64,000 nt of DNA from a virus, in IMG/VR virus record IMGVR_UViG_3300048835_000978, positions 22,346-86,345 of that record; one strand, given 5' to 3'. The position numbers and the translations under genes were made by a program. The notes below the pieces were generated by a model, which saw only the letters and a list, made by a program, of their open reading frames with translations, did not search any database and was not told where the DNA came from. Shown one piece after another: positions 19,595-54,662 of this stretch (the stretch's first letter is position 1; the number at the start of each line of letters is the position of its first letter).

Positions 19595-20023
19595 TTAGCG
19601 TCCGTTCGCAACGGAACTCGCTCGCGGTTCCGTTGCTTGCAAATCGTCAGGCACATGCCGCTCCAGTACCGCCCGCTCATTCCCCAGGTCGCGATTCACT
19701 GCATCGTGCTCTGTGAACTTATTCGGATAACGAGCGCGGAGCTTGTTGATGTTGGCCACCATGCACTGCTCGAAGCTCACGCCGACGTGATCGCAGAGGA
19801 TGGCCAGATACCAGAACGCATCGCCAATCTCTTCGGCGATGTTCGTGCGGTCGGCATGCTTGCCATAAAAGATCGTGCGCTTGAACGAGTCGGTCAGTTC
19901 GCCGATTTCAGTCGCGAGTCCAAAGATCGCATGTACGGCGCGAGCATCGGTAATAAGGCGATTGGCTAGCTCCGGCGTGATAGGGGCCTCGGTGGTCAGT
20001 GCCTGCTCGATATAGTTTTTCAT
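19595..20023 (-). CDS. MazG-like nucleotide pyrophosphohydrolase
   Basis: 142 residues with the MazG/all-alpha NTP pyrophosphohydrolase pattern: GLATEIGELTDSFKR (ExxE-type helix) and IAEEIGDAFWYLAIL (ExxD helix), which hold the magnesium ions. The enzyme turns (d)NTPs into (d)NMPs. Phage copies adjust nucleotide pools or ppGpp. Two further nucleotide-pool genes (ThyX and a dNTP diphosphohydrolase-like gene) lie within 4 kb. Confidence 0.7.
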   Translation of the reverse strand: MKNYIEQALTTEAPITPELANRLITDARAVHAIFGLATEIGELTDSFKRTIFYGKHADRTNIAEEIGDAFWYLAILCDHVGVSFEQCMVANINKLRARYPNKFTEHDAVNRDLGNERAVLERHVPDDLQATEPRASSVANGR

Positions 20024-20725: not shown

Positions 20726-21265
20726 CTAAATGGTTGATGCTTTTGGTCGCCGCCCTATCTTTCCTCGTGACACTGCGACGATTGAATAGTCAATTACGTC
20801 TGGAAAGTTTAGTTTCGCAAATTCTCCAGCCAACTCTCTGGCTGCTTGGTCGTAGGCCAGTGCCGCAACCTCTTCGCTTACGAATGTCCCTAGGTGCTTG
20901 CGAACTTTATTGAACGTGATATGTGACACCCAGCAGTTATTTTGCGAATGTCTTCGCACTCCCTTGAATCGCGAACTCGTTCCAAGAACCGGCCCGCGAT
21001 TGTGCTGATTTTGTGGCTGTGTAGCTAATCGAAGATTGTGGCGCTGATTATCAAGTCCATTGCGGTTGCGATGATCCACGAGGCAGTCTGGCTCACCCAT
21101 GATCATGCGGTGCATGTAAACCCTGCGGCCTTTTCGTCCGACTTGCATTTGGGCGTAGGATGTCTTGTTGCGAACCGCAAGTCGCCAGGGAAGGCTGGCA
21201 AGCCAATCGTAATCAGCATCATCAACAAGCACTTCATGGCCAGATGGCAAGCGTATGATTTTCAT
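20726..21265 (-). CDS. HNH homing endonuclease with AP2 domain
   Basis: 179 residues. The HNH nuclease part shows VDHRNRNGLDNQRHNLRLAT, followed by an AP2/ERF DNA-binding domain (SSRFKGVRRHSQNNCWVSHI ... ALAYDQAARELAGEFAKLNF). This is the standard structure of free-standing phage homing endonucleases. It sits directly behind thyX with an ATGA overlap. Confidence 0.85.
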   Translation of the reverse strand: MKIIRLPSGHEVLVDDADYDWLASLPWRLAVRNKTSYAQMQVGRKGRRVYMHRMIMGEPDCLVDHRNRNGLDNQRHNLRLATQPQNQHNRGPVLGTSSRFKGVRRHSQNNCWVSHITFNKVRKHLGTFVSEEVAALAYDQAARELAGEFAKLNFPDVIDYSIVAVSRGKIGRRPKASTI

Positions 21266-22668
21266 TTCACGAACTCTGCCACTTGTCCGATGCCGTCCGG
21301 TGAGTCGATTAACCGGATGTCCTGAAATGAGTCTGCATACCTGCTTTTTTGCAACTCACGAACCACCTGGACATAGACTTCCCGTATCTCTGCATCGGCG
21401 TGCCGGGAGCATCGCTGTTGAACCATCCTGCGCCACTGACTGACGGACGCGGAGAAGATCATTTCGGTTTGCAGTGCGTTGCCGAGATAGCCGCGTGCCG
21501 CGCCGCGGGCTTGCTTGCGGGCGGAAGTCTTGTCGACCTTGCGGTCGATCAGATACGCCTCAAGCTCGTGAACGGTCAGACGGTAAGTGTTCTGTGCCGA
21601 CTTCATCGTTTCATCCGCACAGCTCGGGATAGCTGTGTCTTCGGCATGCACATCGTTGATGTATGCCGTGATCAGTGGATGCTCGACCCACGGCGAACCA
21701 TCTTCATCCACATACCGCGTACTCCGCTGGCTGATCGCGGTGAAGTCGCCATGTCGGACTTGCTCGTGTGAGAAGCCGCGGCTGCCGGAGAGGTAGAGGG
21801 AGATCCACTTTTCGTGGTCAGTTTCAGGCGGCATGATCATCGCCGAAGTCGACGACGATTGCTCCGGTCGCTTAATGATGTGTGGCGCAACTTGATGGCC
21901 AAGCTCAGCGAGAAGACGACCAAGATCATTGTGAGCATCAATTCGATACTCGTCGTCAAGGTTACCGAACTCGTCGGCGAAGGATTGCCATTCGAGTATC
22001 GCGCGAAGATTGACGGTTATTCTGAAATCGGCATTGTGCCAGTGGCTGTGGAAGATAATGCCGGGACGATTAATCAGCAGATAGGCAGCGTAATCGGCAT
22101 CGAAGCCCTGAACGCCGATCGTGAAATTGAAATGCTCCAACACGCTGCCGTGGCCAACGGCGAGGATGTGGTCGTGGTAGCCCTCAACTCTGCTGCATGA
22201 CACGCCGGCTTTTTGTGCGAAATGGGCGGCGACATCGCTCCATTTCCTGAACTTGCCTGCCTTCATTGCGAACTCGATCAGCGACAGATTGTCGCCGTTT
22301 GCTGCGTCGTGATAGCGGCCATCCTTTATGTTCACAAATGCCGATGGATTGGAATCTGCTCGACCGAACGCATGGCACGTCATGCAGCCATTGTGCTCGA
22401 CGCCAACAAACTGCACCCCCAGCTCCCGATACTCGGCAATCACGTCTAGTTTCGATGCGATCTCCGCGCTATTGAACTCTCCTGATCGGCTAAAGCTCGG
22501 CCTGCCCTTGCCCAGAGAGTCGTAACATACTCGCCCTGCCAACTCGCTCAGCCGCTCAGCCGCCGTCCCCTGCATTTGATCGCTGCGCGGCACGCCCATC
22601 TCTGGCGGAATTCGCACTTCGTCGCCGCCGTCCCAAACAAGGCGGGCTTTCAGTAGATCGTTGGACAT
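21262..22668 (-). CDS. thyX: flavin-dependent thymidylate synthase ThyX with inserted primase-like domain
   Basis: 468 residues. Residues 31-58 (QMQGTAAERLSELAGRVCYD) and 163-181 (GYHDHILAVGHGSVLEHF) are consecutive parts of ThyX, and the signature EQVRHGDFTAISQRSTRY lies further on. ThyX makes dTMP from dUMP with FAD and NADPH. Between residues about 59 and 162 lies a foreign domain (IASKLDVIAEYRELGVQF ... DGRYHDAANGDNLSLIEFA) that is closely similar to residues 12-102 of the primase at 53616-54662. The frame is intact throughout. Typical ThyX is 220-320 residues, so the extra length fits an insertion. Confidence 0.8.
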   Translation of the reverse strand: MSNDLLKARLVWDGGDEVRIPPEMGVPRSDQMQGTAAERLSELAGRVCYDSLGKGRPSFSRSGEFNSAEIASKLDVIAEYRELGVQFVGVEHNGCMTCHAFGRADSNPSAFVNIKDGRYHDAANGDNLSLIEFAMKAGKFRKWSDVAAHFAQKAGVSCSRVEGYHDHILAVGHGSVLEHFNFTIGVQGFDADYAAYLLINRPGIIFHSHWHNADFRITVNLRAILEWQSFADEFGNLDDEYRIDAHNDLGRLLAELGHQVAPHIIKRPEQSSSTSAMIMPPETDHEKWISLYLSGSRGFSHEQVRHGDFTAISQRSTRYVDEDGSPWVEHPLITAYINDVHAEDTAIPSCADETMKSAQNTYRLTVHELEAYLIDRKVDKTSARKQARGAARGYLGNALQTEMIFSASVSQWRRMVQQRCSRHADAEIREVYVQVVRELQKSRYADSFQDIRLIDSPDGIGQVAEFVK

Positions 22669-22712: not shown

Positions 22713-23012
22713 TCAGGCCGCCGCCTGTTTCCGCCGGGCGAACTTCACTTGGTTGCGATAGATGCGATCACACTGCTCGTTCGCCTTGTCGGCCGAGCCG
22801 TATGGCCCGATGACACCGACTTTCATCGACTTGTCGAGCACGATCGCCAGCGGCGGCAAGGCCCAGTTCGTGCGATCGATCCAGACTTCTTTGCTCCGGC
22901 CGTCGAAGCAAACCCACCAGCGCGAGCAGAACAGCGCGAAGCCTGTTCGCTGAATGGCCAGGCCGATCTGGATTCCGATGACGACGGCGATGAGGGCGAT
23001 GAGGATGTTCAT
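22713..23012 (-). CDS. membrane-anchored hypothetical protein, 99 aa
   Basis: One N-terminal membrane segment (ILIALIAVVIGIQIGLAIQ) followed by a soluble part with RWWVCFDGRSKEVWIDRTNW and a basic tail. No family recognised. It overlaps the preceding gene by ATGA. Confidence 0.6.
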   Translation of the reverse strand: MNILIALIAVVIGIQIGLAIQRTGFALFCSRWWVCFDGRSKEVWIDRTNWALPPLAIVLDKSMKVGVIGPYGSADKANEQCDRIYRNQVKFARRKQAAA

Positions 23013-23455
23013 TGAGTCGACTGTGCTTTCAGGTAGTGCTCGTACTCCGGCCGCTCCGGGATGTCGATCAGGTGCGGCATTTTTTCCTCGAAGTGGCACA
23101 GCGTCATCAGGTTCCAAATCGCATGACCCAGATCGTCCTCTTCCGTCTTCCCTTCCAGATAGCTGGCGATATGCTCCAGCGCGTGGTTGATCAACACGCT
23201 GGCGGGCATGCCCTTTTTCCAGTTGTGCGGCGGGTACTTCACGGCCCCTTCCGCACAGGCATTGCCGACGCGACGCAGGCCGACAGGGCTGATCAGATCG
23301 AGGCGAGCCTTGGGGCTGCTGCCGCGAACGGCTCCGGTGTCGAACTTCGTGACGGCTTGGTCGTCCATGATTTCCTCGAACCCTCCGTGATAGATGCCGC
23401 CGCACGGCCCGCGAACAGGAATGGCCATGAACGTGCGAATGTTGCTGTCAGCCAT
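23009..23455 (-). CDS. dATP/dGTP diphosphohydrolase-like protein (DUF5664 type)
   Basis: 148 residues resembling the MazG-related family typed as dATP/dGTP diphosphohydrolase N-terminal domain: TGAVRGSSPKARLDLISPVG, then AEGAVKYPPHNWKKGMP, then INHALEHIASYLEGKTEEDD and HAIWNLMTLCHFEE. The Glu/Asp-rich helices would bind metal. Some relatives (MazZ) serve the 2-aminoadenine DNA pathway, but no PurZ is present in the window. It overlaps the previous gene by 8 nt. Confidence 0.65.
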   Translation of the reverse strand: MADSNIRTFMAIPVRGPCGGIYHGGFEEIMDDQAVTKFDTGAVRGSSPKARLDLISPVGLRRVGNACAEGAVKYPPHNWKKGMPASVLINHALEHIASYLEGKTEEDDLGHAIWNLMTLCHFEEKMPHLIDIPERPEYEHYLKAQSTQ

Positions 23456-23864
23456 CGTGATTCCTGCGCGGCAGCGACCCTGGATAGGGATTGCGTGCTT
23501 CCGGCGGCGAGCTGAACTCGGTCGGAATGAAATCGCCAGTCTCGGCGGGCAGATTGGATTGCTCCGGCTCCGGCTCGGCCAGCCTGCGCTGGAGCGATTC
23601 GGGCAACTGGAGCACGAACTGCTCGGCGATCGCGGCGATCTGCTTGACGGCCGCCGGCTCATCGGTCAGCGATTCGTGCAGCAGCTCGCGGAGCGCGGCG
23701 AGCTTGGCGGCCAGGTCTTTTGAGAGCGACGGCTGATTCTGGAGCTTGGCGATTTCAACGCCAATGGCCTGTCGGAATTTACCGGAAATCGCGGCATGCC
23801 GAGTGTACTTCGGTGAGTTGGTCCAGGCCGTGTAGCGGCGGATAGCAAGGAGAAGATCGACCAT
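23448..23864 (-). CDS. hypothetical helical protein, 138 aa
   Basis: First gene of a leftward unit, read from the promoter at 23962-23991 through a 5' hairpin. It begins MVDLLLAIRRYTAWTNSP and is helical in the middle (LAAKLAALRELLHESL). No family recognised. The ATG at 23864 has GGGGG upstream. Confidence 0.6.
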   Translation of the reverse strand: MVDLLLAIRRYTAWTNSPKYTRHAAISGKFRQAIGVEIAKLQNQPSLSKDLAAKLAALRELLHESLTDEPAAVKQIAAIAEQFVLQLPESLQRRLAEPEPEQSNLPAETGDFIPTEFSSPPEARNPYPGSLPRRNHDG

Positions 23865-26013: not shown

Positions 26014-27133
26014 CGTTTTCGTCTTCTGTTTCGTCGGGGTCAAAGTACAGGAACACCGGGTCGCCCGTTTCCGGGCAGAGAGCCCAGAAATTGTGCGTGT
26101 CGGTCGGCACGGTCATTTCGCGAATCGGAATGTAACCATGGGCGCCGCCGCAGCGATCGCAGCAAGGGATCGATGAATAGGGTTGCTCTTCGGCCTTTTT
26201 CGGGTCGGCCTGGATGACGCGCATGGCGCAGAGCGAATCGAACACGCCGCGGCCGTCGATGATCGTGCGGTCCTGCTCGGTCCCTTGGTCCAGCGCGCAG
26301 GCAAAGGCATCGCGTTGAATGCGATCTTTGAAAACGAGCACGGCATAGAAGCCTGGATCGTCGCGGTCCCCGGTGGAAGAGACTTGCTTCTGGGTGCGGT
26401 CGGTCGCCTCGCGGATTCTCTCGGCCAAGTCCTCTAAGTCAGGCGCGCGATCCTCGAATCCTTCGTCGCCAAAGAGGCGGTAGTATTCGCCCAGGTCAAA
26501 GCCCGCTTCCTCGATGCCGATCTTGTCATCGGCGAAGAGAGATTTCAGTTTGTCTTGATCGTACTCGCCTTGCATGAGCGCGTTGGAAAGTGCGGTCATG
26601 GTTTCCAGGTGAGTTTTTTCGTCCATGTCGACCACGGCGACGTGCAGCCGGTAGTTGGTCCCCTTGTGGTGCGAATCCATGATCGAGAGACGCTGGTGGC
26701 CGCCGACGAGATAGCCGTTGCGTTTGTTCCAGACGATCGGCTCGATCAGGCCGACGCGCTTGATCGTCGATTGGAGCTTCTTGCGGGCCTTGGACGTGAT
26801 GGTTTTCGGGTTTTTCGGGTGCGGCTTGAGATCGCGCCGGTGCTTGACCTCGAACGTGAATTTCTCCAGCTCGGTCAGCGCGGCGGGCGCAGTGTCTTTA
26901 GCGCGCGAGGACTTCGCGGCGGCTGGAGAGGGTGTTTCAGAGGGAGAGGGGTCGCCGGCGGCTTCTGCGGGCTCGGCCTGTGGGCTGCCTGTGTGATCGT
27001 CGTGTGATGGCTGTGGGGCTTCTGCGGGCTCCCCGGTGCCAACGACTGGCTCTCCGGCCTCACTGGGCGGCTGAGGCGGCTGCTGCTTCGCCTTGCGGGG
27101 CTTCCTGGCCTTCGTCTCGTCAGTTAGTTCCAT
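25991..27133 (-). CDS. ParB/sulfiredoxin-fold nuclease-like protein
   Basis: 380 residues. Residues 1-90 are Pro/Ala/Glu-rich and disordered. Then comes a ParB N-terminal domain: DLKPHPKNPKTITSKARKKL, GLIEPIVWNKRNGYLVGGHQ and RLSIMDSHHKGT. The C-terminus has a CDRCGG pair and a very acidic end. Such proteins often sit with PAPS-reductase-like proteins, as here, in phages and mobile elements, where they may act in DNA modification or degradation. It is not a partition gene on this evidence, as no ParA is near. Confidence 0.75.
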   Translation of the reverse strand: MELTDETKARKPRKAKQQPPQPPSEAGEPVVGTGEPAEAPQPSHDDHTGSPQAEPAEAAGDPSPSETPSPAAAKSSRAKDTAPAALTELEKFTFEVKHRRDLKPHPKNPKTITSKARKKLQSTIKRVGLIEPIVWNKRNGYLVGGHQRLSIMDSHHKGTNYRLHVAVVDMDEKTHLETMTALSNALMQGEYDQDKLKSLFADDKIGIEEAGFDLGEYYRLFGDEGFEDRAPDLEDLAERIREATDRTQKQVSSTGDRDDPGFYAVLVFKDRIQRDAFACALDQGTEQDRTIIDGRGVFDSLCAMRVIQADPKKAEEQPYSSIPCCDRCGGAHGYIPIREMTVPTDTHNFWALCPETGDPVFLYFDPDETEDENDGEDEEE

Positions 27134-27699
27134 GTTCTGCCTCTGATTACGTTGGCGATCGTTGCAGCACTGACACCAAACTCACGGCCGAGCATTGCGT
27201 AACTCATGTCGCCAACGGCATATTTGCGGCGAATCTCACTCGCCTTAGCTGTGGTCAGAATGGCGCTGCCGTTTAGTTCGCCCTTGTTGTGTCGAGTCTG
27301 AGTGTTATGCCTGATTCGATCTCGATAATTCTCCATTGGCGTGCCCCACTTGATTTCGCTTAACCGATTGTCGGACTTATCGCCATCCTTATGACGACAC
27401 TCCTGACCCGGCGGACACGGACCAACGAATGCTTCGAGAATAAGGCGATGAACCAAACAAAGTATTTTCTTGCCATCGCGACACAGGCTGACTCGGTAGT
27501 ACCCGCCTGATGTTTTAATTGGACGAAGCTGATGCCACGTATCACTTAAATAAGATTCGCAGCCACCACCTTTTTTGCCCCTGACTTTCCGGCAGCTCCA
27601 AACAGAGCCATCATCGCCTGCCCTATAGCCAGGGAACCGCTTAATCGGCCTGTACTGGACGGGCACGGTCTTTTGCTGCTGCATGCGTTCCAATTCCAT
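27124..27699 (-). CDS. NUMOD4/HNH homing endonuclease
   Basis: 191 residues. KRFPGYRAGDDGSVWSCRK is a NUMOD4-like start, followed by VHRLILEAFVGPCPPGQECR and KDGDKSDNRLSEIKWGT, the HNH core, and a C-terminal helix-turn-helix (MLGREFGVSAATIANVIRGR). It overlaps the 3' end of the PP-loop gene by 59 bases, consistent with insertion between two adjacent genes. The ATG at 27684 is an alternative start. Confidence 0.8.
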   Translation of the reverse strand: MELERMQQQKTVPVQYRPIKRFPGYRAGDDGSVWSCRKVRGKKGGGCESYLSDTWHQLRPIKTSGGYYRVSLCRDGKKILCLVHRLILEAFVGPCPPGQECRHKDGDKSDNRLSEIKWGTPMENYRDRIRHNTQTRHNKGELNGSAILTTAKASEIRRKYAVGDMSYAMLGREFGVSAATIANVIRGRTWN

Positions 27700-28360
27700 A
27701 CCAATCACGACGCTTAACAATTGCTTCAACGAATGGATAGACAAGCCGGATTTTCTCGTAATCCTCCGGGAAGGAATCATATAGCCACAGTACGCTCGAA
27801 ACCGTCAACCCCAGACCGCCAGAAGTTGCCCCGTCCGACGATGGGACGGGGATTTTCTTGGATTGCAAATAGGCGAGAACGTGCCACTTGTTCCATTTCT
27901 CGATCGGATAGATGCGTTCCTGGTGAGACTTCGAGAGCGCTTTCATCGTCCGGCGACGCCAGAGCGAATCGGACATCTTGCCACCATGGGCCACGATCGA
28001 GCATTTGGCGTCAGAGAGGGCCAGCCGCTCGATGTCATGGACATTCAGGTCGGGCATCGAGGCGAACGCGGGGTCCGGGAAGCGGTAGGTGCCGTGCTTG
28101 AGGCATTGCAGCATGCCCCAGTGCGGATACTGGCGGATGTCGATTTTCCATCGCTGGCGAGCGTACTCCAGGCGTTCTTCGACGTGGGCCAGGCCCGGCA
28201 CGAAAAACATGTGAAACGCTTCAACGCGCGCGAAGAGAGAGCAGCACAGGTCCATCACGCACAGCGAATCCTTGCCGCCGGAGTAGCTGACGAGGATCGA
28301 GTCGTGCTCTTTGGCGAGACGGACCAGACGCTTAATGGTCTGGTCGAATACGACAGCCAT
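27641..28360 (-). CDS. PAPS reductase-like PP-loop protein
   Basis: 239 residues with the PP-loop SYSGGKDSLCVMDL near residue 28 and a later SLWRRRTMKALS segment, as in phosphoadenosine-phosphosulfate reductase-like proteins. Phage members lack the reductase Cys motif and act in other adenylation chemistry, including sulfur modification of DNA or tRNA. It is next to the ParB-like gene, a known pairing. Its last 20 codons overlap the HNH gene, so the C-terminus may have been changed by that insertion. Confidence 0.75.
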   Translation of the reverse strand: MAVVFDQTIKRLVRLAKEHDSILVSYSGGKDSLCVMDLCCSLFARVEAFHMFFVPGLAHVEERLEYARQRWKIDIRQYPHWGMLQCLKHGTYRFPDPAFASMPDLNVHDIERLALSDAKCSIVAHGGKMSDSLWRRRTMKALSKSHQERIYPIEKWNKWHVLAYLQSKKIPVPSSDGATSGGLGLTVSSVLWLYDSFPEDYEKIRLVYPFVEAIVKRRDWYGIGTHAAAKDRARPVQAD

Positions 28361-51502: not shown

Positions 51503-53341
51503 TTACTCAGTGTTTTGACTTAAGGCCGTTCCATCACTGTGCGCCGATGTGTTATTACAGTACACCTCAGCACCGATGAATTCATCATCTAGGTAAGGTA
51601 GGCTGACTGATATGCAATAGGAAACCTGCCCGCCAACTCGCCGCCGTGCCGTGGTTGCGCTGGGAAGCCGTTTAAGGATCTGGTCGATGCTCTTGGCTCC
51701 CCAGGCCGTATTCTTCAGTTGGTGGTCTGTGACGGCCTTGTACGCAAGAATTAGGGCCGCTTTGCCGTCGACCTTGATGCCTGATTTCGCCAGGGCTTGC
51801 TCTGCCTCGTCTCGATCGGCCGAATACTCCCCCTTGCGAACGGTTTCGATAAGCTGGGATACTGAGTAAGCTTTGCGGCCGGTGTGAATATGGGATGATA
51901 GGATAGCCCGCATAAGCTCTTTTTCGTCCTCGGATTCAGTCGCCTCGGATTCGACCTGGATGTCACGCACCATTTCCATGAGAACTTGCCTGGCGTCGTC
52001 CGTATCGGCGTGCTGGACGGCTGCCAGCATGGAAGCAGGCACGGCGTAGCTCTCGATCGCCCGGTCACTAACGCCGGCCACGCGGACGTTCTTTAGCTGG
52101 GCGGCAATTCGCTTCGCCTGATGGATGTAGCGGATCGACACGGCCAGCATGCGGTGGCCAAAGTCATGCAGCTCATCCTGTGACGGCAGAACCAGCTTCC
52201 GCTCTTTCGGCCGGATCAGCTCCAGCATGATGAAGCGGTTGCGATCGGGCTCGCGACGCAAGTGCAGCTCCACGGCCGCCACCCAGACGATGTGATTCAG
52301 GCTGAATTCCTCGCCCTTCTGGTTGGCGGTGCCACGCAGCGTTTTGGCCCCGCGGCCGGACGTGCGGAGCATGTTCAGGATCTCTTCGCGATTGCGGCCA
52401 GCAGTGAGCCCATCGGCTTCGAACTCATCGCACAGGATGATCCGGTTGCTCGTTTTAATCACCTGCCGAATGCCGGCCGCCGAGCTTTGGGAGCTGTTGA
52501 TGACGAGCTTGCCGTAGATGCCAGAGAGGAAACTGAATAGCGTCGTCTTGCCGGTGTTCGACGCACCAGTCAAAGCGACCTGCGGGCGCCAGGCCCATAA
52601 CGACTGGACCCAGGTGGCCATTACGAGCCCCGCCATGACGAATGGGCTGGAAACCTGATGCCGCCATGTCCACATGTCGAAATAGCTCTGTGCCCGGTAC
52701 ATCGTCTCGATGGCGAAATCTTTGTCGCACCGGGCCAGGTAGCCAGCAAGCCGTTCGAAGTCATACCAGGGCTCGGCCGTGAGCCCCAGATTTAAGATCT
52801 GGCCACGGCATCGCGGCTGATCGACGCGCTCCAGCTCCTGGGAGCCATTGAACTCAGCCGCCTCGCCGGCGCTTACGAGCACGACTGAGTTATGCTCGCG
52901 GCCTGTCTCGTCGATGCCGGCACAGCAACCCACTCCCGGCCGCGTGTAGCGGTCCAGGCGGCGCTCGTAAGAGCTGACCATGGCGATTGCCGACTTCACG
53001 TCGTTGACATCGACCAGCCCCGGTATGTCCTCCGTCTTGCGGCGGACGAGGCGGTCGCGAGCGGGCTCGCCGGCAATCATCAACAGCCGGTCGTAGCTGA
53101 TTTTGTCGATGTCGCGTACTTCGTCCTCGCGGCGTCGGTGCCGCGACCAGAGCACGACCCCGGAGTCGCCTACCTGTCCAAGCACGTCAATTTGCAGCAT
53201 GTCGAGTATCTGCTTCTCTCGCGCGATCCCATCAGCCGACAGTGATTGCTCGGCTGTCGGCTGCGATGGGTCGGCGACTGGTGTTGGCGCGTAAGCCTCT
53301 GCTGCTTCGGCGAGTGCCAGCAAATCCTGATAGGTCCGCAT
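51503..53341 (-). CDS. replicative P-loop helicase (SF3/DUF927-like)
   Basis: 612 residues. The P-loop GASNTGKTTLF and Walker B RIILCDEFEAD lie in the middle, flanked by PFVMAGLVMATWVQSLWAWR and SLNHIVWVAAVELHLRREPD. The order and spacing fit phage superfamily 3 or DUF927-type helicases that work with a separate primase, here at 53616-54662. The C-terminal 200 residues may bind D-loop or origin DNA. ATG at 53341; a longer frame start has no ribosome site. Confidence 0.75.
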   Translation of the reverse strand: MRTYQDLLALAEAAEAYAPTPVADPSQPTAEQSLSADGIAREKQILDMLQIDVLGQVGDSGVVLWSRHRRREDEVRDIDKISYDRLLMIAGEPARDRLVRRKTEDIPGLVDVNDVKSAIAMVSSYERRLDRYTRPGVGCCAGIDETGREHNSVVLVSAGEAAEFNGSQELERVDQPRCRGQILNLGLTAEPWYDFERLAGYLARCDKDFAIETMYRAQSYFDMWTWRHQVSSPFVMAGLVMATWVQSLWAWRPQVALTGASNTGKTTLFSFLSGIYGKLVINSSQSSAAGIRQVIKTSNRIILCDEFEADGLTAGRNREEILNMLRTSGRGAKTLRGTANQKGEEFSLNHIVWVAAVELHLRREPDRNRFIMLELIRPKERKLVLPSQDELHDFGHRMLAVSIRYIHQAKRIAAQLKNVRVAGVSDRAIESYAVPASMLAAVQHADTDDARQVLMEMVRDIQVESEATESEDEKELMRAILSSHIHTGRKAYSVSQLIETVRKGEYSADRDEAEQALAKSGIKVDGKAALILAYKAVTDHQLKNTAWGAKSIDQILKRLPSATTARRRVGGQVSYCISVSLPYLDDEFIGAEVYCNNTSAHSDGTALSQNTE

Positions 53342-53378
53342 CCTTGTTCCTTCAAGAAAACCTTGATGTGCTGGCGGG

Positions 53379-53579
53379 CTAAGAGCGACGCAGGGGCTTT
53401 TTGTTCTCCGCATGCAGAACGGTAACGGGATGATTGAATTGCACGCCTTCGAGCTTCGACCGCTCGGTCGGGTCGACGCAGCGCTTGAGCAGCCGCTTCT
53501 TTTTCCACCTTTTGCGGATCGCTTCGGCTCGCTCCAGCAACTCTTCTGGTGTGAAGCATCCTTGTGGTACTCCGTTCAT
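53379..53579 (-). CDS. small basic protein, 66 aa
   Basis: FTPEELLERAEAIRKRWKKK, then RSKLEGVQFNHPV: a basic helical protein lying between primase and helicase. ATG at 53579 with GAGGAG 7 nt upstream; variant leader motif precedes it. It may be a loader or adaptor, by position only. Confidence 0.6.
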   Translation of the reverse strand: MNGVPQGCFTPEELLERAEAIRKRWKKKRLLKRCVDPTERSKLEGVQFNHPVTVLHAENKKPLRRS

Positions 53580-53615: not shown

Positions 53616-54662
53616 TCAGACGCCGTTAAAGAAGTCCCGAACATCCTTTCCTTTGCTCTTGGTGACTTCATAAGGCAGGGTCACGTTTCGCAACTCGGCG
53701 GCCACGCCATGCAGCGCGTACAGCCATTTCTTGGCCCCGGTCACACCGGCCTCGTCGGTGTCGTGAGCCACGAATACTTTGCGGCCGGCGAAGAAGCCGG
53801 CAACATGGGGCGGGATGTCGCCTGTCTCGCTGGATGCGTTACAGGTGACAAGGTGAGCGTCGCGCTGCTCGGCGGGAATCTTGCCGAACAGCGCGAGCAT
53901 GTCGGTGGGGCCGGCTGTTTTCCAGATCAGCTCGATGCGCGGGTCATTGAGCATCATCTGTGACAGCGCATGCGTGCCCATCATGGCTCCGAATGTCGGA
54001 CCTACGGACAGCATTTTCGGCTGCTTGGCAGGACGATCGGGACCGGCGGGAATATCGAAGTGCGTGCCAGAGATATTCCAGATGACCCAGGCGACCGGAT
54101 CGGCGTCGAGTAATTGATGCCCAAAGGCCGGCAGCGCGACGACCTTGTAGCGGCCGATGTGCCGCTCTTTGGTTTTCCTGTCGCGGTAGCACGGCCAGCG
54201 AGCGACGCGACCGCCGTTGAGCTTGACCGCTTCCAGCGTGATGCCCGGCTTGTGCTTCTTGCACCACATTTCAGCCAGGACATCGTTACCAGAGTCCCAT
54301 TGCTCGAACTCCAGCGCTTCGCGCGGGTCTTGAGGGCGCCGGCCGCGGCCGATTTCTACGCCGGCTTTTTCTGCGAAGTGCTTGCGGGCATCGACCCAAT
54401 TGGACCACTGCCCGTTGCCGTAGCGGACGGCGAAGTCCCACAGAGACAGCGACTCGCCATTGCCTTTATCCCCATAGCGGCCCGTTTGCACGCTCACCCA
54501 GGCCGAGGCGGTCGATTCTTCGCGGCCCCTGGCGTAGCAGGCTGCGTAGCCATTGTCGCGCACGCGGCCGTCAAACTTGACGCCGAGTGCTTCGTATTCA
54601 ACTATGATGTCGAGGCGCGACAGAATCTCATTGTTAATGTCCTCGAACTTTTTGCCGGACAT
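53616..54662 (-). CDS. TOPRIM DNA primase
   Basis: 348 residues. The TOPRIM domain includes WKTAGPTDMLAL and KVFVAHDTDEAG, the latter with the DxD metal motif. In the first motif the usual catalytic Glu of (V/I)EGPTD is replaced by Ala, which is odd for an active primase. The N-terminal 100 residues are the domain that is also inserted in ThyX. It makes RNA primers for replication or has a regulatory role if inactive. Works with the helicase at 51503-53341. Confidence 0.75.
   Translation of the reverse strand: MSGKKFEDINNEILSRLDIIVEYEALGVKFDGRVRDNGYAACYARGREESTASAWVSVQTGRYGDKGNGESLSLWDFAVRYGNGQWSNWVDARKHFAEKAGVEIGRGRRPQDPREALEFEQWDSGNDVLAEMWCKKHKPGITLEAVKLNGGRVARWPCYRDRKTKERHIGRYKVVALPAFGHQLLDADPVAWVIWNISGTHFDIPAGPDRPAKQPKMLSVGPTFGAMMGTHALSQMMLNDPRIELIWKTAGPTDMLALFGKIPAEQRDAHLVTCNASSETGDIPPHVAGFFAGRKVFVAHDTDEAGVTGAKKWLYALHGVAAELRNVTLPYEVTKSKGKDVRDFFNGV

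Follow-up and report, generated by a model that had tools for sequence, protein, structure and literature searches.

A phage ThyX interrupted by a predicted zinc-free primase-type domain, a possible tie between dTMP synthesis and phage replication

The window analysed here, a stretch of 64,000 nucleotides from the IMG/VR virus record IMGVR_UViG_3300048835_000978, contains at positions 21262-22668, on the minus strand, a single open frame for a flavin-dependent thymidylate synthase (ThyX) of 468 aa. The protein was matched by the Pfam Thy1 profile (E 3.5e-27; 95.9 bits for a cut-off of 24.8) and by structure, residues 272-467 of its AlphaFold model aligning with ThyX of M. tuberculosis (3gwc) with a Z of 20.8 over 183 residues; the confidence of the model is low in the N-terminal ThyX half outside the insert described below. 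The gene lies within a stretch of nucleotide-metabolism genes, about 31 kb away from the primase gene, and its neighbours, at window positions 19595-20023 and 23009-23662, code for a MazG-like pyrophosphatase and for a protein resembling dATP/dGTP pyrophosphohydrolases. An HNH-AP2 endonuclease gene (20726-21265), possibly a free-standing homing endonuclease, shares four bases with the end of thyX, and another HNH endonuclease gene is found at 27124-27780.

Residues 1-58 of ThyX (22495-22668; this and all the following features of the window are on the minus strand), which end in CYDSLGKGRPS, could be aligned with the ThyX of three sister phages, L183, L198 and L199. They are followed by an insert of residues 59-161 (22186-22494), a short N-terminal linker included, which is missing from these three proteins and from 73 other phage ThyX. 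Beyond the insert come residues 162-188 (22105-22185), which form the EGYHDHILAVGHGSVLEH segment conserved in the ThyX alignment, a second extra region of residues 189-291 (21796-22104), which marks a long form of ThyX and contains ITVNLRAILEW, and the C-terminal core of residues 292-468 (21265-21795), in which Pfam and PDB alignments and a conservation table located RHG (305-307), S316, R318, Y319 and R419.

The insert separates AGRVCYDSLGKGRPS from EGYHDHILAVGHGSVLEH with the frame kept, and these segments adjoin in the uninserted relatives, in agreement with the split of neighbouring conserved parts that the preliminary description had reported. Comparison with L198 showed a junction of GQGRSS/DGFHAHI in the sister protein and of GKGRPS/[103 aa]/EGYHDHI in the window. 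The insert region was empty in the 73 other phage ThyX, where the few non-zero columns arise from flanking residues that spilled over in the alignment. The insert is unlikely to be an artefact of assembly, because the frame is preserved and a second viral record (IMGVR_UViG_3300048589_000597), which may not be independent, is 100% identical over 11,404 bases and encodes the same ThyX.

The insert was rejected as an intein, since its junctions (GRPS/FSRSGEF and VSCSRV/EGYHDH) present neither an N-terminal C or S nor a C-terminal (H)N followed by C, S or T, which bears out the earlier remark that it has no intein-like end. Extra sequence likewise interrupts the ThyX of intein-bearing phages (mycobacteriophages, PMC5050341; L041 and L199), but those inteins splice out and are located at active-site motifs, whereas the insert stays in the protein and is devoid of splicing residues. 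The ThyX inteins that we read were located within the motif HGS (L199, 4783-6963; about 331 aa) or after RHRAGTAF (about 313 aa; L041, 3698-5551, and L042, 1721-3574). The thyX frame of L040 (266-1048) contains an in-frame TAA where its relatives have a Gln codon (SELS*RYV), which may reflect a nonsense mutation, an error or stop recoding. The Thy1 of Thermus thermophilus (6j61) is also a ThyX with an added domain, but this domain is a C-terminal appendage and not an insertion.

The counterpart of the insert in the same phage is the N-terminal domain of P0002 (53616-54662), a primase-like protein of 348 aa with a TOPRIM-type C-terminal part, homologous to L095, L098 and L099. Local alignment of ThyX residues 69-160 with P0002 residues 12-106 (54345-54629) gave a BLOSUM62 score of 220 and an identity of 47-49%, while 1000 shuffles of P0002 gave a mean score of 36 (SD 5) and a maximum of 74. 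The foreign segment first noticed by its match to the primase N-terminus is thus confirmed, with limits refined to 59-161 for the insert and to 69-160 and 12-106 for the homology. Compared as DNA, the insert and P0002 could be aligned over a short stretch only, so their similarity is old and of protein level.

A search of the whole record (86,345 bases) found these two copies of the domain and no third, the second copy with an E of 2e-24. The overlap of the HNH-AP2 endonuclease gene with the end of thyX could be expected if the insert were a mobile protein element, whether intein-like or borne by an endonuclease, moving among replication genes, but this explanation is largely refuted and highly improbable: splicing residues are missing at both ends, terminal repeats were looked for at the insert and none was found, the record has only the two copies, and all other copies found represent the primase domain, almost always at its usual position, with none in the other ThyX genes that we read. 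The true inteins of sister ThyX, moreover, are located elsewhere, at active-site motifs. The sharing of a module by the two enzymes is real; in primases, this domain reads the template and passes on the primer. The mobile domain offered as an alternative in the preliminary description is weakened by the same copy number and lack of repeats and splicing motifs.

On the evidence of profiles and of the predicted structure, the insert is a DnaG-type zinc-binding domain (CHC2 zinc ribbon) without its four zinc ligands, the fold covering residues 69-160 (22189-22464). The PF01807 profile compared with the insert alone gave 14.5 bits (E 0.032), which is below its cut-off of 24.9, in a collinear match of positions 17-93 out of 98. 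Comparison by hhalign of the subfamily profile with a two-row alignment of DnaG zinc-binding domains gave 96.4% and an E of 1.2e-9 over 84 columns, and a seven-row HMM of the domain reached two canonical DnaG proteins (E of about 5e-4 to 7e-4), at the weak end of its matches in planctomycete genomes. Searches of PDB sequences with the domain gave chance matches only.

AlphaFold modelling of ThyX from the single sequence gave a mean pLDDT of 35; with a 29-row alignment the pLDDT was about 92 for the insert and below 50 for the linker region (51-64). The model presents the insert as a separate domain and not as an ordinary ThyX loop and, like the successful profile comparison, sustains the initial reading. 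Structural comparison of model residues 57-162 with VIA-align showed that they resemble the zinc-binding domains of Bacillus DnaG (1d0q_A; Z 10.6, rmsd 3.0, 94 of 102 residues) and of the Aquifex primase (2au3; Z 10.1), as well as human Twinkle (Z 6.5). A divergent primase N-terminal module of this fold has a precedent in the N-terminal domain of the Twinkle and T7 gp4 primase-helicases (7t8c), although this domain belongs to a helicase and not to a nucleotide-synthesis enzyme.

The insert shares with the DnaG zinc-binding domain (PF01807; 1d0q, 2au3) the fold, the order of elements, the PS-A and G-x-Y motifs and the length, and its homologs are likewise N-terminal in TOPRIM primases. It differs in being lodged in ThyX with no TOPRIM core behind it, such as its homologs have, and in the replacement of all four ligands. 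In an HMM alignment with a canonical DnaG (L110), the positions of the zinc ligands (C-x2-H ... C-x2-C) are occupied by A100, R103, D121 and N124. R103 and D121 are invariant across the seven-row alignment, and this pair may stand in for zinc. The zinc ligands are missing throughout the source primase subfamily, which retains the DnaG zinc-binding-domain fold.

A degenerate DNA pattern built from the two copies (GR-x-[DE]-x-[NT]-x-SA...G-x-Y-x-D) recovered this primase family. It matched five more viral stretches, representing four distinct ones, and each of these codes for a protein of the P0002 kind (one shortened by its contig stretch). Another match was L099, a Pirellulales protein of 921 aa in which the domain, a TOPRIM-like part and an AAA ATPase form one chain. 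The single chain of L099 corresponds to P0002 plus its downstream neighbour, the primase-helicase ATPase part (51503-53413; PHROG DNA primase, E 6e-25), which matches the C-terminal part of L099. Toprim_2 was weakly detected in L095 and L099. Of 392 planctomycete genomes, 10 contained the domain as detected with the seven-row profile. Most of the proteins concerned are primase-like, and some have TOPRIM together with D5 or DnaB parts of helicases; the homologs are N-terminal to TOPRIM and accompanied by D5, DnaB or AAA helicase parts. In L106 (1-1869), from a planctomycete genome, a single chain unites the zinc-free domain with a TOPRIM-like part and the N-terminal domain of a DnaB-type helicase, a layout like that of T7 gp4. 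In several phages, a Prim-Pol (AEP) primase whose C-terminal part contains a divergent copy of the domain is encoded about 3 kb from thyX (L091/L092, 5353-6255; L041, 2-586; L013, 2-541; L023, 1-624). The host of the phage is probably a planctomycete, because the closest primases occur there, which is the one basis for this assignment.

When ThyX alignments were used as queries, about 150 phage ThyX loci were collected, the searches overlapping in part. The three closest proteins were L198 (47% identical), L199 (42%) and L183 (40%), all with the second extra region and all without the insert, which places the gain of the insert in this phage's own lineage, after the split from them. As judged by sequence, the donor was the N-terminal domain of a primase of the phage TOPRIM type. 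In a 15-row tree the insert clustered with L095, L098, P0002 and L106 with a support of 99/96, and a 10-row tree left its exact placement unsettled. A recent duplication from the resident primase was also considered and is unsupported: the insert is about equidistant from three phage primases (49-50%) and P0002 is nearer to L098 (60%) than to the insert (49%), a clade of the insert and P0002 being not rejected (p-AU 0.16). A first genome scan for relatives gave no matches, and scans for close relatives with the ThyX, primase or two-copy domain alignment gave at most the identical record. The insert is known from one phage only, in two records that are perhaps not independent.

Codon comparison of the insert with P0002 showed an agreement of 65-66% at positions 1 and 2 and of 40% at position 3, with a dN of 0.50, a dS of 1.43 and a dN/dS of about 0.35, a value averaged over both lineages and with dS near saturation. 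The insert retains 20 of the 25 columns that are invariant in five primases, while each primase, left out in turn, retains 20 of 21-24. This ratio and the columns kept indicate that the insert is under constraint, and its fold is likely constrained slightly less than in the primases; such constraint speaks for retention of the fold and says nothing on the binding target. They also bear on the explanation that the insert is a neutral passenger, a foldable domain put by recombination into a surface loop that tolerates it and remaining there folded but functionless. The loop is variable in length among ThyX, inteins are also present in thyX of related phages, so that the gene is often invaded, and the insert occurs in a single phage. 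We nevertheless consider this explanation rather unlikely, as the insert, though it has diverged from the primases by about 50%, still keeps most of the invariant columns and a clean frame, and a useless domain of 100 residues in a phage would be expected to decay or to be lost by deletion.

The active site of this ThyX is atypical. The third Arg of the RHR signature, present in 73 of 73 other phage ThyX, is Gly (RHG 305-307, window 21748-21756), so that the protein does not conform to RHR-x7/8-S; TGNxR is replaced by SASVS, in which N and R are both Ser, and the protein falls short of the NCBIfam thyX equivalog cut-off. These changes could suggest that the protein has ceased to act as a thymidylate synthase, and that the insert and the altered active site mark the new role of a pseudoenzyme or of an enzyme with another substrate. 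We regard this as decidedly unlikely: the equivalents of T. maritima H53, R78, H79, S88, R90, Y91 and R174, matched by motif, are retained (for the role of R174, see PMC8316439), and the RHR and TGNxR changes predate the insert, because the insert-free L183 and L198 also have RHG, and the insert-free L199 has RHK. The insert was rejected as the cause of the RHR loss for the same reason. The sister proteins, which are 40-47% identical to the window protein and share its long-form region, differ from it in having no primase domain, and L199 in having an intein at another site.

The second extra region (103 residues, 189-291), absent from ordinary ThyX, had no place in the preliminary description, nor had the identity of the inserted domain. 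It is common to L183, L198 and L199 and missing from most ThyX, crAss-like phages having a shorter version, and it predates the insert. It contains a T-x-N-[LFP]-R motif (ITVNLR here, VTLNLR in L183 and ITTNFR in crAss-like phages), and the usual C-terminal TGNxR is mostly lost. As a guess, T-x-N-L-R might replace the lost NxR, as if the FAD-binding motif had moved, which would also speak against a pseudoenzyme.

The insertion point corresponds to about residue 40 of T. maritima ThyX, just past the loop of residues 27-37, when counted with S30 and H53 of this protein as anchors. The loop controls access of folate (PMC11940539). Such a position would suit a regulatory insert that opens or closes folate access when DNA, a nucleotide or a partner binds to it, but this is unlikely, as no ligand is known for the insert and the low pLDDT of linker 51-64 suggests that the domain may be loosely tethered.

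The zinc-binding domain of primases reads the template or single-stranded DNA and hands the primer over to the polymerase. Swaps of this domain between T7 and plant primases transfer specificity too (PMC10557236). With the fold, origin, boundaries and constraint of the insert as described above, we infer its binding, location and benefit as follows. The N-terminal domain of a phage TOPRIM primase was taken up in frame by a long-form ThyX, in a surface segment just past the folate-access loop, where it would act as a folded docking or single-stranded-DNA-binding module. Known ThyX structures are tetramers, and the module would tether the tetramer to single-stranded DNA, to the phage primase-helicase or to the polymerase, so that dTMP would be produced at the site of phage DNA copying.

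We favour this docking module, over folate gating and neutral passage as its main rivals, because the primase of the phage has the same domain, the fold is DnaG-like, the insert is under constraint and the main catalytic residues of ThyX are kept. Against it count the loss of all zinc ligands, the distance of about 31 kb between thyX and the primase gene, hence no operon link, the RHG active site and the occurrence of the insert in one phage. By analogy with primases, it could well be, though we put it tentatively, that the insert ties dTMP synthesis to replication in this way; that ThyX rides on single-stranded DNA or on the primase-helicase for on-the-spot delivery of precursors, with folate access possibly gated by binding, is conceivable but doubtful. 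Placement of ThyX at the replisome by the shared module, as proposed in the preliminary description, is a reasonable suggestion.

No paper on a fusion of ThyX with a primase domain was found in the open-access literature searched, where a ThyX with a zinc-free primase domain is apparently unrecorded, and such a protein is apparently limited to one phage. It has long been asked if enzymes of nucleotide synthesis are bound physically to the replication fork, and the evidence is for the most part indirect. The presence of a primase-type domain in ThyX suggests a tie between this enzyme and the phage replication machinery, and a natural fusion makes the idea of fork tethering directly testable on one protein, for which the three relatives devoid of the insert can serve as controls. 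The DnaG zinc-binding domain also gains a zinc-free subfamily, present in phages and planctomycetes.
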